Of a stretch of 64,000 bases of DNA, positions 10,087 to 19,224 are shown piece after piece (the first letter of the stretch is position 1; each line of letters begins with the position of its first letter). The notes under the pieces were generated by a model that was given only the letters and a program-made list of their open reading frames with translations, made no database searches and was not told the DNA's origin. The stretch is from an uncultured Eggerthellaceae bacterium. GTDB taxonomy: Bacteria > Actinomycetota > Coriobacteriia > Coriobacteriales > Eggerthellaceae. Location of the stretch: assembly GCA_903789415.1 (NCBI GenBank), contig CAIFEG010000008.1:1-64000 (forward strand), read 5' to 3'. The position numbers and the translations under genes were made by a program.

Positions 10087-12801
10087 ATGCAAAATCAGGA
10101 ACATAGCCATTTGTTTGAACAAGAAACCCAAGAGTCCCAAGGCCCAAAAAGCCCTGGAAAAGAAAGCTCAGAAGGAAAAAGCCTCGAAAAAGAAAACCCT
10201 GAAGAAGAAAGCCCAGAAAACTCCCAAGGCGCTCCTTCGTTGGAAGATCAAGTTCCTGATTTGTGGTTTGATCGGGAAGAATTTCCCGATGTCAAACCCG
10301 AAGATCCGCTTACGCCTGATGAATCGCTCGAACGGTTTATGGACTGGGCCGCCTCCCGCGGAATCAATCTGTGGGCGCACCAAGAAGATGCCCTCATGGA
10401 TTTGGCTGTCGGTGACAACGTGATTTTAGGCACTCCTACCGGCTCGGGGAAATCAATGGTTGCGCTGGGTTTGTCATACATGACCATCTGCACGGGCAAA
10501 CATGCCATCTATACGGCGCCGATAAAGGCGCTCGTGAATCAAAAGTTTTTCGATCTCGTAGACATTCTGGGAAAAGATAACGTGGGAATGCTTACGGGGG
10601 ATTCCCATATCAATGTGGATGCTCCCGTGATTTGCTGTACCGAGGAAATTCTTGCAAATATTGCACTTCAAGAGGGCGAAAATGCTCAGGTAGCAAGCGT
10701 TGCGATGGATGAATTCCATTATTTTTCCGATCCTGATCGTGGATGGGCGTGGCAGGTTCCGCTGCTCACGCTTCCGCAGACGCAATTTCTGCTGATGAGT
10801 GCCACGCTGGGCGACACAACCAAAATTGCCCAGACGCTCAAGGCGCATACGGGGCGCGATGTCGATCAGATTCTTAATGCAGAGCGTCCTGTTCCCCTTC
10901 GCTATGAATATGTTGAGACCAATATTGAAGGCACCGTTGAACTTGCGCTTCGGGCAGGCGAAGCGCCCATGTATATCGTCCATAGTTCCCAGGATGCAGC
11001 GCTTTCAACGGCGCAATCGCTTTCAAGTTTCGGCGTGGCAACCAAAGAGCAACGCACCGCAGCAAAGCAGGCGATGAAGGGATTTCAATTCAACACGGCG
11101 TTTGGCAGAACGCTTAAACGCCTGTTGACCAGCGGGGTAGGAGTGCATCATGCGGGTATGCTTCCGCGTTATCGCCTGCTAGTGGAAAAGCTTGCACAAG
11201 AAGGGCTTTTGCCGGTGATCTGCGGAACCGACACCCTTGGTGTGGGTATTAACGTGCCTATTCATACGGTTATCTTGATGGCACTCACCAAATATGATGG
11301 CAATAAAATGCGGCGCTTAAAGCCGCGCGAGTTCCACCAGCTTGCGGGACGTGCAGGTCGTGCGGGGTTTGACAGCGAAGGGGTCGTGATCGCTGAGGCG
11401 CCTGAGTATGCAATTGAAAATGCGCGGGCGATGGCAAAAGCGGGCGACGACCCACGAAAACAGAAGCATATCAAGAAGAAGCATCCACCTAAAGATTTCG
11501 TGAACTGGGACAAGCACACCTTCGAGCGACTTGTCGCGGCGGCGCCTGATACGCTCAAACCTCGAATGACCATTACGCATTCGATGGTGCTCTCAGAAGT
11601 GCTGCAGGGCGGTGATGCAAATGCACGCGTTCGCAAGCTCATCGATGATTCGCTTCAAACACCTGAGCAAAAGGTGAAGCTCTATGAACGAGCGCAGGAG
11701 ATTTTCGATACCCTTGAGGCAGCAGGCGTCGTGAAAGTTGATCATGATGCACAGGGAAAACCAGTGTATAGCCTTACGGTTGAACTTCCGCCGGATTTCG
11801 CACTTGATCAGCCGCTTTCTCCGTTTATGTTGGCGGCCCTTGAACTGCTTGACCCTGAATCTGATAACTATGCACTCGATGTCATCTCGGTGGTGGAATC
11901 TACGCTTGAAAATCCGTGGCAGATTCTGCGTGCGCAGCGGCGTCTTGCGCGTAATCGTGCGATGGCCGAAATGAAAGCGGACGGCATAGAGTACGAGGAG
12001 CGCATGGAGCGCATTCAAGATGTGACGTATCCCATGCCGCTTCGACGTGATCTTTTTGCTGCCTTTGATGTGTATTGCGAAAAGGTCCCTTGGGCGCGTG
12101 ATTTTCAGCTGCATCCCAAGTCGGTGTTGCGTGACATGGTGGAACGTGCGGCAGACTTCAAGGAATACATCGCGGCATATGGCATTGCGAAAAATGAAGG
12201 CACGTTGCTTCGCTATCTATCGGAGGCGTATCGGGTGCTCGCGCGCACGGTGCCCGAAGACAAGATCGATGAGCGCCTTGAGGGTATCATCGATTGGCTT
12301 GGATTCTTGGTTACGCGTGTTGACTCCAGCTTGCTGGATGAATGGAACTCGTTTGGTCAGGAAGCGGATGAAAAGCCGCCAACGCAAAAAGATGTGGTGG
12401 TAGCCGACAGGCACGGTATGGAAGTGCTAGTTCGCAACGCGCTGTTCTTGCGGGTGCGCTTGGCTAGCCAGAATAAGGCGGCACAGCTCGGCACGCTCGA
12501 CGGCGATTGGGGATATGGTCAACGCAAGTGGGCAGATGCACTCGATGATTTCTACCAGGTGCATGAGTTTATTCGTACCGACGCCGATGCGCGCTCTGCT
12601 GCATATTTTTTGTTAGACGAATCAGATGAGGAATCTGCGCATGTGTGGCACGCGACACAGATTTTCGCGGATAGCGATGATGACCATGATTTCCAAATTC
12701 GTGGCGATGTGGATTTAGATGCGACACAAAACGAAGGCGAAGTGGTGTTTTCGCAGTATTGTGTGGGATTTCCTGAGCAATTTGATGACAAGGATGCGTA
12801 A
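10087..12801 (+). CDS. Ski2/Mtr4-like DExH-box RNA helicase (DUF3516 type)
   Basis: Superfamily II helicase of 904 aa, probably acting in RNA processing or turnover. Motifs appear in order: Walker A GTPTGSGKS (115-123), motif Ia TAPIKALVNQ (143-152), motif II DEFH (208-211), motif III SATLGD (238-243), GVHHAGMLPRYR, and motif VI QLAGRAGRAGFD (about 417-428). The long C-terminal region corresponds to the DUF3516 part of actinobacterial homologues. Residues 10-60 are a Glu/Ser/Lys/Pro-rich low-complexity tail that is probably disordered. The only possible ATG near the beginning is at 10087; its ribosome-binding site is weak (AGGGG about 15 nt upstream). It stands alone, divergent from LuxR copy 2. 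Confidence 0.9.
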   Translation: MQNQEHSHLFEQETQESQGPKSPGKESSEGKSLEKENPEEESPENSQGAPSLEDQVPDLWFDREEFPDVKPEDPLTPDESLERFMDWAASRGINLWAHQEDALMDLAVGDNVILGTPTGSGKSMVALGLSYMTICTGKHAIYTAPIKALVNQKFFDLVDILGKDNVGMLTGDSHINVDAPVICCTEEILANIALQEGENAQVASVAMDEFHYFSDPDRGWAWQVPLLTLPQTQFLLMSATLGDTTKIAQTLKAHTGRDVDQILNAERPVPLRYEYVETNIEGTVELALRAGEAPMYIVHSSQDAALSTAQSLSSFGVATKEQRTAAKQAMKGFQFNTAFGRTLKRLLTSGVGVHHAGMLPRYRLLVEKLAQEGLLPVICGTDTLGVGINVPIHTVILMALTKYDGNKMRRLKPREFHQLAGRAGRAGFDSEGVVIAEAPEYAIENARAMAKAGDDPRKQKHIKKKHPPKDFVNWDKHTFERLVAAAPDTLKPRMTITHSMVLSEVLQGGDANARVRKLIDDSLQTPEQKVKLYERAQEIFDTLEAAGVVKVDHDAQGKPVYSLTVELPPDFALDQPLSPFMLAALELLDPESDNYALDVISVVESTLENPWQILRAQRRLARNRAMAEMKADGIEYEERMERIQDVTYPMPLRRDLFAAFDVYCEKVPWARDFQLHPKSVLRDMVERAADFKEYIAAYGIAKNEGTLLRYLSEAYRVLARTVPEDKIDERLEGIIDWLGFLVTRVDSSLLDEWNSFGQEADEKPPTQKDVVVADRHGMEVLVRNALFLRVRLASQNKAAQLGTLDGDWGYGQRKWADALDDFYQVHEFIRTDADARSAAYFLLDESDEESAHVWHATQIFADSDDDHDFQIRGDVDLDATQNEGEVVFSQYCVGFPEQFDDKDA

Positions 12802-12980: not shown

Positions 12981-15167
12981 ATGGGAATTCAAACGGGACT
13001 TGCGCGGTGCATAAGCGCGGTGTCAACCGCGGCGCTGAAGCATGTGTTTCATCGTCCAGCGGCGAATTTCCCTGGCAAAATCGCGCTTTACGTGGATCCT
13101 CACATCATTGCCGATATGACAAAGAAGCTGGGCAAGGGCAGCATTTGCGTGGTGGGCACCAACGGAAAAACCACCATCACAAACCTGATTGCCGATGCTC
13201 TTGAATCTGCGGGGCAGCGCGTCGTATGCAATCGAACGGGAGCAAACTTAGATTCCGGGGTCGCCACGTCGCTTCTCCATGCAACCCAGAGCGACTGGGG
13301 TGTTTTTGAATGCGATGAACTCTGGCTCACCAAGATTTTGCCATTTACACAGTCGAAGTATGTGCTGCTGTTAAATTTATTCCGTGATCAGCTTGATCGT
13401 GTGGGAGAGATCGACCGCACGCAAAATTCAATCGTGAATGCGCTAAAGCAGTCGCCGAAAAGCATTCTGATATATAACGGCGACGATCCGCTGTGCGAGG
13501 CTATCGCACGGAAGGCGCCAAATCCTCATGTGGCATTCGGTATCGACGAAGATTTGCATTTGGTAAATCACACGGTCTCCGATGCGCCGATGTGCCAGAT
13601 GTGCGATGGAATTCTTCAATATCGGTATCGCCAGTATGGCCAGCTGGGGGACTATCACTGTCCGAAGTGTGATTTTGCGCGCCCGGCACTGGCGTTTGCC
13701 GCGCACAACTGCCATATCGGTTCAGATCAAATCGATTTTGACGTGGTGCATGCTGATTCGAATAAAGATCAGTCGACCACTGCTCATATCCACGCAGATG
13801 TTGCGGGTGCCTATATGCTCTACAACTTGCTTGCAGTATATGCCGCCTCGCACCTGATGGGTGCGCCCGATAGTGCCATTGCCGAAGCGATTGCATGTTT
13901 CCACCCAGATAATGGCCGTCTGCAAACTATCCGCATCGGTAACCACAATGTGCTTTTAAACCTGGCAAAAAATCCCACGGGATTCAACCAAAATCTCACG
14001 CTCATTAACCAGGTAAAAGGTCGTAAAGCAGCGGCGTTCTTTGTAAACGATAAGCAAGCCGACGGCCACGATATTAGCTGGATTTGGGATGTAAATTTTG
14101 ATGAACTGGCCGATCAGGACGTTGTTGCGTTTGCTGGCGGCATCCGCAAAAACGATGTGCAGCTGCGCTTGAAATATGGCAATGTATCTGCTGAACTCAT
14201 TGAAGATGCCCATCAGGCGATGCAGAAAATCTTGAATGATCCATCACTTGATGGATGCCCCGTGTTTATGATCGCAAACTATACGGCGCTTCCGCAGGTT
14301 CGCCAGCAGCTCATGGAAATGGCGAAAACAGCTCAAGATGTCTCCGCTTCGTCTGATGCACAGCCATTAGACGCGGATGCAGCGAAAACGTCGTTCTATG
14401 CGAAAGACAAGCCGACATTTACCATGGAGCATCCGTTGCGCATCTATCACCTGATGCCGAAGCTTTTGAATTTGTATGGCGACAATGGAAACGTTAAAGT
14501 GCTTCAGCGCAGGTGTGAGTGGCGAGGAATTCCTGTCGATGTGCACGATGTAAAATTTGGTGAACCAGCGAATCTGGGCAACGCCGATATTGTCTTTTTA
14601 GGCGGTGGTCCTGACCGCCAGCAGAAACTCGCAAATGAAATGCTCCTTTCCATGCGCGTTCAAATCTTGGATTACGTGGAATCCGATGGGGTACTTCTGG
14701 CCATTTGCGGTGGATACCAAATTTTGGGGCCTTCATGGTATGCGGATGGCGAAAAAGTTAAAGGACTCTCAATTCTCGATATGCATACCGACCCTGCTCC
14801 AGAAGGCGCGTCGCGAATTATCGACAACATCGTGATTGATTCGCCGCTCTCTACGCGTCCGGTTGTGGGCTATGAGAACCACGGTGGGCGAACCTATCTT
14901 GGTAAAGATCTGAAACCATTTGGTACGGTTCACAACCATATTGGTCATGGCAACAACGATGATTCAGGCGCTGATGGTGCCCTGTATAAGCATGTGGTGG
15001 CAACGTATTTACATGGTCCGTTGCTCGGAAAGAACCCGCAAGTGGCTGATTGGATCATTCAGAAGGCTATCGAACATCGTTTAGGCAGAAAGGTAGATTT
15101 ACCAAAGCTCAACGATGATGTGGAAAATGAAGCGAATGCTTTTATGTGCAAGCGATTAGGTGCGTAA
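12981..15167 (+). CDS. Fused lipid II isoglutaminyl synthase, MurT-GatD in one chain
   Basis: The complex amidates D-glutamate of lipid II to D-isoglutamine. Residues 1 to ~455 are MurT: Mur-ligase P-loop GTNGKTT (59-65), a four-Cys zinc ribbon (Cys205/208 and Cys227/230), and the DUF1727 region with KNPTGFNQN. Residues ~482-728 are GatD, a class I glutaminase: oxyanion segment GGGPDRQ, nucleophile Cys576 in AICGGYQ, and catalytic His678 in YLHGPL. These are two genes in Staphylococcus and most relatives. Here one frame continues through a linker (about 455-481), and the in-frame ATG at 14424 has no clear ribosome-binding site. The ATG at 12981 follows GAGAAAGGG. Substrate ammonia would pass between the joined subunits. 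Confidence 0.92.
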   Translation: MGIQTGLARCISAVSTAALKHVFHRPAANFPGKIALYVDPHIIADMTKKLGKGSICVVGTNGKTTITNLIADALESAGQRVVCNRTGANLDSGVATSLLHATQSDWGVFECDELWLTKILPFTQSKYVLLLNLFRDQLDRVGEIDRTQNSIVNALKQSPKSILIYNGDDPLCEAIARKAPNPHVAFGIDEDLHLVNHTVSDAPMCQMCDGILQYRYRQYGQLGDYHCPKCDFARPALAFAAHNCHIGSDQIDFDVVHADSNKDQSTTAHIHADVAGAYMLYNLLAVYAASHLMGAPDSAIAEAIACFHPDNGRLQTIRIGNHNVLLNLAKNPTGFNQNLTLINQVKGRKAAAFFVNDKQADGHDISWIWDVNFDELADQDVVAFAGGIRKNDVQLRLKYGNVSAELIEDAHQAMQKILNDPSLDGCPVFMIANYTALPQVRQQLMEMAKTAQDVSASSDAQPLDADAAKTSFYAKDKPTFTMEHPLRIYHLMPKLLNLYGDNGNVKVLQRRCEWRGIPVDVHDVKFGEPANLGNADIVFLGGGPDRQQKLANEMLLSMRVQILDYVESDGVLLAICGGYQILGPSWYADGEKVKGLSILDMHTDPAPEGASRIIDNIVIDSPLSTRPVVGYENHGGRTYLGKDLKPFGTVHNHIGHGNNDDSGADGALYKHVVATYLHGPLLGKNPQVADWIIQKAIEHRLGRKVDLPKLNDDVENEANAFMCKRLGA

Positions 15168-15410: not shown

Positions 15411-17198
15411 ATGGCTTTTCAAAATCATAGAGCATCAGACAATTCAAATGTGCGTCGCACGCAAGCGAGCCACGGACGACATTCGCGTGCGAATGTTCAA
15501 AACACCCGTACGCAAGATCAATCGCAAAATCGATCACGCACGCGCACATCAAGAAACGCTGCACCTCAGAATTCTTCCCAATATTCAAGGGGAAATGCAA
15601 ACAGATATGCGCAGCAAGCCCCGCAAAATGCGCCGGGAAACGTTTCGCAATACACTCAGCAATATGCGTCTCAAAACGCTCCGCAGGGAAATGCGAAGTC
15701 GAGACCCACATCCCGCAAGAATTCGAAAAAAACATCATCAAGACGCACTTCAAAGCGCGAGCGTCAGTACCGTCAACCGGGCGCATCGGCAGCTTCATAC
15801 AGCGACCCAACGCGTTATTCTGCAAGTGCAAGCAGACCAGACATGTTCTCGCGCGATGCGGCAACGCAACATTATGCCAGCGAGCATAAACGCTTGCATC
15901 GTCATCGCATTCTCAAACGCGTGTTGATAACAATTTTGATTATTGTTCTTGCGGCTGTTGTTGCTGCGGCGGCATACATATACCACATTAATTCGAACTT
16001 AAATCGTGGTACCGATAGCGGGCTCTCAAATGTTCTCGTGAGTTCCAACATGACAAAAGAGCCATTCTATATGGTGCTTATGGGTACTGATCAGTCCCTT
16101 CAACGTGATGAAGATGGATCTACGGCCGATACGTATCGTACCGATTCCATCATGCTTGCGCGGCTGGATCCGGTGAACAAGAAGATTACGCTTATCTCGC
16201 TTCCGCGTGATACGCAAGTGAATTTGCCGGAGTATGGAACGCAAAAATTGAATGCGGCGTATGCCTTTGGTGGACCTTCCCTGGCTGTCCAAACGGTATC
16301 CAACATTTCTGGTCAGAGCATTTCTCACTATGGTCTGGTAGATATGGATGGGCTGAAAGAAGTCGTCGATGATCTGGGTGGCATTGACGTCAATGTTCCT
16401 ATGACGATCGACGATGAAGATGCCGGCGGCCATTTGGATGCAGGCGAACAGACGCTCAATGGTGACCAGGCACTTATTCTCTGTCGTTCGCGTCACGCCT
16501 ATGACCAGTACGGTGCAGGTGATGACTTCCGCGCTGCAAATCAGCGTTTGGTGTTAGCTGCCATTGCAAACAAGATGCTTGCATCAGACCCTCTGACAAT
16601 TGCAAACACCGTTAACACCTTGTCTCAATACGTACAGACAGATCTGAGTGTCAACGATATCATTGCGCTCGCACAGACGTTCCAAGGTATGGACGTTTCA
16701 AACGATATGTATTCAGCGGAAATGCCGACGAATTCTGTCTACGAAGATGATCTGTGGTATGAACAAATTGATCAGCAAGCATGGCAGCAGATGATGCAGC
16801 GCGTGAATAACGGTGAGCCACCAACCACAGGAAACGAAGTTGATGCAGCTACGGGTACGATTCTTTCCAATGCGGGAAGCGAATCTACGGGAACTAGCTC
16901 CAGCACCAGTTCAAAAGCGGGCACAGTTGTTGTTCGTAATGGTTCGGGTGCGCAAGGGGTCGCAGCGTCTGTATCTTCAAAGCTTTCTGATGCGGGATAT
17001 TCGGTAGGCAACGCAGGCAACGCCGACAGCTTCAACTACACCGAATCTCTCGTGGTTTACGATGATGTTGACGACGCAGGTGAAGCCCAGGATATTGCGA
17101 ATATTGTGGGCGGAGCGACAGCGATGCAAAACGATGGCAACTACCTCTACCAAGGCGACTTCTTGGTGATCATTGGCAAAGATTACAGCGATAATTAG
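15411..17198 (+). CDS. LytR-CpsA-Psr (LCP) family wall-polymer ligase with LytR_C domain
   Basis: LCP enzymes transfer undecaprenyl-linked polymers to peptidoglycan outside the membrane. The 595-aa product has a long cytoplasmic N-terminus (1-165) rich in Gln, Asn, Arg and Ser. A single membrane anchor follows at about 170-192, then the LCP catalytic domain (about 214-390). Typical landmarks are MVLMGTDQ, YRTDSIMLARLD, SLPRDTQV, the Asp-rich GGIDVNVP region and LCRSRHAYDQYGAGDDFRA, which includes conserved Arg residues that bind the pyrophosphate. A Ser/Thr-rich linker leads to a LytR_C domain (about 503-592). The ATG follows an AGGG site with short spacing. The gene is monocistronic between MurT-GatD and the trp leader. 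Confidence 0.92.
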   Translation: MAFQNHRASDNSNVRRTQASHGRHSRANVQNTRTQDQSQNRSRTRTSRNAAPQNSSQYSRGNANRYAQQAPQNAPGNVSQYTQQYASQNAPQGNAKSRPTSRKNSKKTSSRRTSKRERQYRQPGASAASYSDPTRYSASASRPDMFSRDAATQHYASEHKRLHRHRILKRVLITILIIVLAAVVAAAAYIYHINSNLNRGTDSGLSNVLVSSNMTKEPFYMVLMGTDQSLQRDEDGSTADTYRTDSIMLARLDPVNKKITLISLPRDTQVNLPEYGTQKLNAAYAFGGPSLAVQTVSNISGQSISHYGLVDMDGLKEVVDDLGGIDVNVPMTIDDEDAGGHLDAGEQTLNGDQALILCRSRHAYDQYGAGDDFRAANQRLVLAAIANKMLASDPLTIANTVNTLSQYVQTDLSVNDIIALAQTFQGMDVSNDMYSAEMPTNSVYEDDLWYEQIDQQAWQQMMQRVNNGEPPTTGNEVDAATGTILSNAGSESTGTSSSTSSKAGTVVVRNGSGAQGVAASVSSKLSDAGYSVGNAGNADSFNYTESLVVYDDVDDAGEAQDIANIVGGATAMQNDGNYLYQGDFLVIIGKDYSDN

Positions 17199-17652: not shown

Positions 17653-19224
17653 ATGAATGCTTTGAATACGATTACTCCCACAAAAGAAGAAATTCGCACC
17701 ATTGCGCAAGAAGGTACGTATCACTTCGTCCCCATCAAGCGTGATATTCTTGCGGATTCGATCACGACGATTGAAGCATTTCGGGCGCTCTCAAATAACG
17801 ATCATCATTGCTTTATGCTTGAGAGTGCCGAGCCTGAACAACGCACGGGGCGCTATTCATTTATCGGAGTAAATCCGTTTGTTGAGCTCACCTGCACTAA
17901 TGGGCACCTGAAGCTTACGTATAGCGGAAATATGGCATCTGCAGACACCACATCTGGGGATACGGTACCCGAAGACCCAGCAGCCGAGAACACGGCATTC
18001 GGAAGCACAGCATCAGTTGTCGAAAAAGAAGTCAGGCATCCCGGCGATACGATCCGTCACCTCATCGCGCAAAACGCCGCTCCTCAACTCGAGGGATTTC
18101 CGCCCTTCACCGGCGGCTTGGTAGGATTTTTCTCCTACGATTATCTGAAATACGCAGAGCCAACACTTCAAAACGACCAGATCTCAGATGATTTCAACGA
18201 CGTGGACCTGATGGGCTTTTCAGAGCTCGTGGTCTTCGACACCTACACAAGTCGGATTTCGCTCATTGCACGGGTCGCAACGGACGACATCGACGATTCC
18301 TATCAGCGGGCAGTTAACGCGATTGATGCTATGGAGCGCCTGCTGAAGGGAACGCAGCGTCGTGTTTTCCCGCCACTTCAGATGGAAGGCGATTTGGCCC
18401 CTCGGTTTAGCAAAGCCGAATATTGTGCGATGGTGGAAAAGGCAAAGCAGCACATTTTTGACGGTGACATTTTCCAGGTCGTGCTTTCAAATCCGCTCAC
18501 CGCAAAGGCAACGGGAAGTCTTTTCGACACGTATCGAATTCTTCGTTCGACAAACCCATCCCCCTACATGTTCTATTTTGCGAGCGACAACCTGGAAGTT
18601 GCCGGCGCAAGTCCCGAAACTTTGGGCAAGCTCACCAACGGGGAACTGGAAACCTACCCGCTGGCAGGTACACGTCCGCGGGGCAAAACATCTGAAGAGG
18701 ATGAAGCGCTTGAAGAGGGACTTCTTACCGACGAGAAAGAGATCGCTGAACACACGATGCTTGTCGATCTTGGGCGCAATGACCTGGGCCGCATCGCTGA
18801 ACTCGGCACGGTGCATGTAGATAGCTATCTGAATGTGTTGCGATTTTCCCATGTGATGCATCTCGGTTCCACCGTCACGGCGCACATCGCAAAAGGCAAG
18901 GATGCCGTGGATGCAATCGATTCAATATTGCCGGCAGGAACGCTTTCCGGAGCTCCCAAAATTGAGGCTTGTCATATCATCCAGGAGCTCGAAGGATCCA
19001 CGCGCGGCATCTATGGTGGCGCGATCGGATACCTGGATTTTTCTGGAAATATGGATACCTGTATTGGGATACGACTTGTTTACAAAAAACATGGTACGGT
19101 TTGTGTTCAGTCAGGTGCAGGGATTGTTGCGGACAGTATTCCGGAACATGAGTATCAGGAATGCATCAACAAGGCTCAGGCAGTCGTCGAGGCGCTGCAT
19201 ATCGCTGAGGGAGGTCTCGAATGA
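17653..19224 (+). CDS. trpE: Anthranilate synthase component I
   Basis: It converts chorismate plus ammonia to anthranilate, the first step of Trp synthesis, working with TrpG. The feedback-site motif MLES (55-58) with GRYSFIG suggests inhibition by Trp. Chorismate-binding motifs are present: AGTRPRG, DLGRNDLGRI, LSGAPKIEA and the closing VQSGAGIVADS. At 523 aa it is slightly long because of a low-complexity Ser/Thr/Gly/Ala insertion at about 91-125 between N-terminal strands. The ribosome-binding site before the ATG is weak. It is the first gene of the six-gene operon and overlaps trpG by 4 nt. Confidence 0.97.
   Translation: MNALNTITPTKEEIRTIAQEGTYHFVPIKRDILADSITTIEAFRALSNNDHHCFMLESAEPEQRTGRYSFIGVNPFVELTCTNGHLKLTYSGNMASADTTSGDTVPEDPAAENTAFGSTASVVEKEVRHPGDTIRHLIAQNAAPQLEGFPPFTGGLVGFFSYDYLKYAEPTLQNDQISDDFNDVDLMGFSELVVFDTYTSRISLIARVATDDIDDSYQRAVNAIDAMERLLKGTQRRVFPPLQMEGDLAPRFSKAEYCAMVEKAKQHIFDGDIFQVVLSNPLTAKATGSLFDTYRILRSTNPSPYMFYFASDNLEVAGASPETLGKLTNGELETYPLAGTRPRGKTSEEDEALEEGLLTDEKEIAEHTMLVDLGRNDLGRIAELGTVHVDSYLNVLRFSHVMHLGSTVTAHIAKGKDAVDAIDSILPAGTLSGAPKIEACHIIQELEGSTRGIYGGAIGYLDFSGNMDTCIGIRLVYKKHGTVCVQSGAGIVADSIPEHEYQECINKAQAVVEALHIAEGGLE

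Follow-up and report, generated by a model that had tools for sequence, protein, structure and literature searches.

A natural single-chain MurT-GatD fusion in an uncultured Eggerthellaceae bacterium and its apparently repeated origin in Coriobacteriia

Domain architecture of the fusion

In the window, by which we mean the whole 64,000-nucleotide stretch of contig CAIFEG010000008.1 analysed here, from an uncultured Eggerthellaceae bacterium, murT and gatD are joined in one gene (12981..15167, + strand). It is a single open frame of 728 amino acids without internal stop, with a Shine-Dalgarno duplex of -7.4 kcal/mol upstream of the ATG at 12981. Comparison with related sequences confirmed a real, evolutionarily fixed MurT-GatD joining and no sequencing artefact. 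The product, a single chain of ~80 kDa, is very probably a lipid II isoglutaminyl synthase whose two halves are covalently tethered and whose chemistry is that of ordinary MurT/GatD. In the pathogens studied MurT/GatD is essential and serves as a drug target, and both of its proteins have to be made jointly; an enzyme that is fused by nature offers a ready-made construct for solving structures with bound lipid II. Besides, Coriobacteriia are common in the gut, and their isoglutamine-bearing wall fragments are relevant to NOD2 sensing by the host.

An earlier note, made from the letters of the window, had described a full Mur ligase with the four-Cys ribbon, DUF1727 and a glutaminase with Cys576 and His678 in this one frame, and frame, Pfam, NCBIfam and alignment located every one of them there. 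The MurT half is complete, with the Mur ligase middle domain (Mur_ligase_M, Pfam PF08245, 1.7e-12; residues 57-192, 13149..13556, +), the four-Cys ribbon and the MurT C-terminal domain (MurT_C, formerly DUF1727, Pfam PF08353, 1.7e-28; residues 328-437, 13962..14291, +). Complete as well is the GatD glutaminase half (residues 484-728, 14430..15164, +; Pfam PF07685, 4.9e-36; PDB 5n9m/6gs2 at ~1e-47), in which the GATase_3 (PF07685) match covers residues 487-685 with 124.6 bits. All three Pfam domains exceed their cut-offs. Between the MurT and GatD models lies a linker of ~36 residues (about residues 448-483, 14322..14429, +); the junction had been put near 14350-14424, which is right as to its location but falls somewhat short of its extent. 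Among solved structures, MurT and GatD chains from Streptococcus pneumoniae (6fqb), Staphylococcus aureus (6gs2, 6h5e, 7q8e) and Streptococcus pyogenes (9sq9, 9sqj) come nearest, and Foldseek ranked those of 6h5e, 9sq9 and 6fqb best.

The ATP-binding P-loop GTNGKT (residues 59-64, 13155..13172, +) and the ribbon cysteines C205, C208, C227 and C230 (13593..13670, +), which align with the Cys-rich insertion seen in MurT structures, are invariant in 12 aligned fusions. The S. aureus glutaminase triad crosses two proteins, with C94 and H189 contributed by GatD and D349 by MurT (PMC6113224). In the alignment to 6gs2, D349 corresponds to D364 of the window chain (14070..14072, +), and the catalytic nucleophile C576 (14706..14708, +; motif LAICGGYQ) and the catalytic histidine H678 (15012..15014, +; HGP motif, here TYLHGPL) are the counterparts of C94 and H189, so the chain holds the entire triad in one polypeptide. 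Its MurT part therefore has the features that define the family, GTNGKT P-loop and MurT_C with Cys4 ribbon and triad Asp, as has its GatD part, GATase_3 with the nucleophilic Cys and the His of the HGP motif. Where the known complex consists of two polypeptides from an operon there is here one 728-aa frame, and the chemistry does not require two.

The gene lies between a DEAD-box helicase with DUF3516 (10087-12801) and a LytR-CpsA-Psr wall-polymer ligase (15411-17198), which is followed by a TrpE-like anthranilate synthase (17653-19224). These surroundings form no obvious wall operon.

Substrate and divergent relatives

The NCBIfam MurT model matched residues 1-447 (3e-73) with 247 bits, below its equivalog cut-off of 800 bits, and GatD models matched residues 486-726 (4e-57) with 174 and 194 bits, below cut-offs of 400-450 bits. 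Such cut-offs (400-800 bits) are very strict, and the shortfall limits a claim of exact equivalence, not of homology; because of it we infer the substrate. The chain could thus be a MurT/GatD relative that amidates another acceptor, or one in which the glutaminase does not feed the ligase, and the diversification of the family in Coriobacteriia, with both divergent MurT/GatD-like pairs and MurT-like paralogues that stand alone, speaks in the same sense. We consider this unlikely, since the window copy, unlike those paralogues, retains all the listed active-site residues of MurT and GatD, clusters with the canonical copies and is the sole MurT/GatD locus of its genome (1.88 Mb), the other match there being a 25%-identical Mur-ligase stretch. 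Lipid II remains the more probable acceptor.

The second, divergent MurT/GatD-like pair is separate in L163, L164, L170 and L171 and fused in L169, L172, L173 and L174; L167 has a weak GatD-like frame upstream. In this pair GatD matches GATase_3 weakly and lacks both Cys and His; the D364 position of MurT is occupied by Tyr or Phe. MurT-like ligases that stand alone, with no GatD close by, were found in L155, L156, L159, L160, L162 and L165, with Ser, Thr or Tyr at this position, and also in L161 and L168, with Asp. Taken together, the D364 position is mostly Y, S, T or F in the divergent and solitary paralogues that have no active GatD, which is consistent with a role of D364 in the GatD triad.

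Distribution of fused and separate genes

Eleven more fusions, from independently named contigs and including those of Gordonibacter pamelaeae and Senegalimassilia anaerobia, align with the window chain across the junction at 50-59% identity. A search with the alignment of these 12 fusions found the whole chain, uninterrupted and in one frame, among the matches listed for at least 137 of the 397 genomes searched in the order. The occurrence of the fusion in other Coriobacteriia, a point raised in the earlier note, is thereby established for the order. The note had also considered a sequencing or frameshift error at the junction, by which a missing base or a misread stop would join two adjacent genes. 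Separate murT and gatD mostly overlap or abut, hence a small error could join them, and in genus g10 of family f1 some pairs even share one frame with a stop between them. Nevertheless, the relatives that span the junction and the uninterrupted frame in at least 137 genomes, at three places of the gene tree, exclude such an error, and the joined chains have an alignable second domain and a linker of 27-122 residues; the probability left to an artefact is negligible.

Among the classified canonical loci, fusions predominated in the Eggerthellaceae-like family f1 (55 fused, 9 separate) and in f3 (10 fused, 1 separate), and separate genes in f2 (16 fused, 38 separate). The genes were separate in all 20 loci fetched from Actinomycetota outside Coriobacteriia. 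Beyond Coriobacteriia, the frames of 690-1006 aa that had looked like fusions, and likewise Clostridia L042 and Desulfurella L044, all turned out to be separate genes once fetched. In addition, no MurT_C was detected in the near-complete f1 genomes G004, G039, G136, G191, G225 and G266 and in several f3 genomes, which indicates that the amidation system can be absent within these families.

No clear start signal for a separate GatD

A continuous frame could still yield GatD, additionally or mainly, from an internal start, in which case the heterodimer would persist. The ATG at 14424 immediately precedes the GatD domain, and the TTG at 14436 has a weak Shine-Dalgarno-like stretch that could in principle yield some separate GatD. 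Most separate gatD genes start at the murT stop or within a few bases of it, and at separate gatD starts (n=78) the predicted pairing with the anti-Shine-Dalgarno sequence was strong (median -9.7 kcal/mol). In the fused genes the best candidate at the junction had -2.6 kcal/mol (n=95) versus -3.6 inside murT, which does not differ from background (p=0.15) and falls well short of the signal at true separate gatD starts (p=2e-21); 18 of the 95 had no in-frame start codon near the junction at all. In the window the duplexes were +0.3 kcal/mol for ATG 14424 and -5.6 for TTG 14436, to be compared with that of the murT start. Moreover, Met482, encoded by ATG 14424, is not conserved among the 12 aligned fusions. 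An internal start at 14424, which the earlier note had put forward as a way in which the single chain could fail, is not borne out by these values. With fused junctions at background level and no Shine-Dalgarno sequence at ATG 14424, a separately initiated GatD is very unlikely, and we take the 728-residue chain to be the form in which GatD is made.

Origins of the fusion

A tree of 164 concatenated MurT and GatD sequences required four changes between the fused and the separate state, and so did a mixture-model tree of 82 sequences (quick search). The fusions fell into three clades. Clade A contains f1 with f5 and includes the window copy, clade B contains f3 with the f2 genera g42 and g65 and has the separate f1 g10 genes as its sister group, and clade C is made of two f2 g58 genomes nested within separate f2. 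A single origin of all fusions, with A, B and C as one clade, was rejected by the AU test (p=6e-7), while A and B as one clade was not (p=0.235). The trees thus point to at least two independent fusions, and to three on the best tree.

Genus g17, inside clade A, has the genes split again (L110 1222-3839; G768 C1 2339569-2341682). The L110 MurT carries a tail of 51 residues before a TAATG junction, and this tail may be what is left of the linker. We considered L110 as a frameshift artefact and rejected it, since G768 of the same genus is also split and the L110 gatD has a strong Shine-Dalgarno sequence. Such tails are also found on some g10 MurTs, and g10 may represent a second return to separate genes.

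Fused relatives without the catalytic cysteine

Several fused GatDs have lost the catalytic cysteine, which is replaced by Asp in L027, L035 (4001-6163), L036 (4001-6142), L147, L199, L203 and L204, by Asn in L038 (4001-6172) and L207, and by Gly in L033 (1050-3218) and L028, the last with Gln also in place of the His. The MurT residues, including D364, are retained in those that were checked. In three g29 genomes and in G748 and G788 (both about 70-77% complete) the Cys-less copy stands beside an intact fused one, and in G269 (96% complete) it was the only copy found. Among canonical-type copies all the losses lie on fused branches, and the Cys was kept in all separate canonical GatDs examined. 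A branch-length test of Cys loss against fusion gave a weak result (p about 0.035, four inferred events including one reversal), and in the divergent type-2 pairs the triad was lost in the separate state. A link between fusion and Cys loss is therefore only suggestive.

In S. aureus the GatD mutation C94G abolished the use of glutamine and left an ammonia-dependent activity at pH 8.5 (PMC3266927, Table 2), for which GatD was still required (PMC3266927). This mutant resembles the Cys-less fused L027, L028, L033, L035, L036, L038 and L147, whereas the window protein keeps its Cys. Among the carbamoyl phosphate synthetases CPS I is ammonia-dependent (PMC6022934), and we predict by analogy that the natural Cys-less fusions may be driven by ammonia in the same manner.

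One tentative reading, which we hold as possible though short of probable, brings these observations together. Fusion would have happened repeatedly in Coriobacteriia (at least two independent fusions and one return to separate genes). In a joined chain the glutaminase half could then lose catalysis and persist as a structural partner that the enzyme cannot do without, with free ammonia driving the amidation of lipid II. Whether no other copy was found or an intact one accompanies them, the Cys-less fused chains would then be natural versions of C94G. The Cys-less relatives permit a direct test of whether ammonia alone feeds wall amidation in vivo, and of why a dead glutaminase is kept.

Linker and proposed mechanism

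The linkers of 89 fusions had a median of 44 residues (range as above), were rich in Ala, Pro, Ser and Glu and were poor in hydrophobic residues. The AlphaFold model of the window chain had a mean pLDDT of 81 and a pTM of 0.81, the latter being the measure by which its interdomain geometry was judged; the domains were confident, and confidence was low at residues 1-36 and 87-97 and in the linker (pLDDT about 46-53 over 451-480). Variable in length, of such composition and modelled with low confidence, the linker suits a tether and not a channel.

The chemistry has been established for the separate MurT/GatD complex (PMC3266927, PMC6085368). By homology the GatD half of the window protein would hydrolyse glutamine with C576 and H678 and with D364 from the MurT half, the ammonia would move from the GatD to the MurT half, and the latter would convert the D-Glu of lipid II to D-isoglutamine by ATP-dependent amidation of its alpha-carboxyl. 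The linker would act as a flexible tether that holds the partners 1:1 and guarantees their assembly, most likely leaving chemistry and ammonia path as in the heterodimer. From these likenesses we infer that the chain is active, that it acts on lipid II, that GatD docks on MurT in cis and that the tether brings a benefit. The fixed stoichiometry that had been expected of a covalent linkage follows, as 1:1, from the one-chain architecture. The changed ammonia path proposed with it is unsupported, because the cross-interface triad is kept in full, and the linker is tether-like.

Comparison with known systems

MurT and GatD are normally separate and co-transcribed, as the earlier note stated and as holds for the bacteria studied. 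The complexes of S. aureus, S. pneumoniae and S. pyogenes (6gs2, 6h5e, 7q8e, 6fqb, 9sq9) have the same domains, in the same order and with the same active-site residues as the window chain, at 27-38% identity in structure alignments. They are two polypeptides from an operon, whereas the window encodes one with its ~36-residue linker. In Mycobacterium tuberculosis the pair is Rv3712/Rv3713 (PMC8210147), likened here by description and not by alignment. No report of a natural MurT-GatD fusion was found in the full-text literature searched (subscription papers and database annotations were outside its scope), and a survey of MurT/GatD distribution mentions only an operon (PMC6085368). In the single-chain amidotransferases (GATases, PMC3266927; CPS, PMC6022934) glutaminase and synthase are likewise joined, but these enzymes belong to synthase families other than MurT/GatD.
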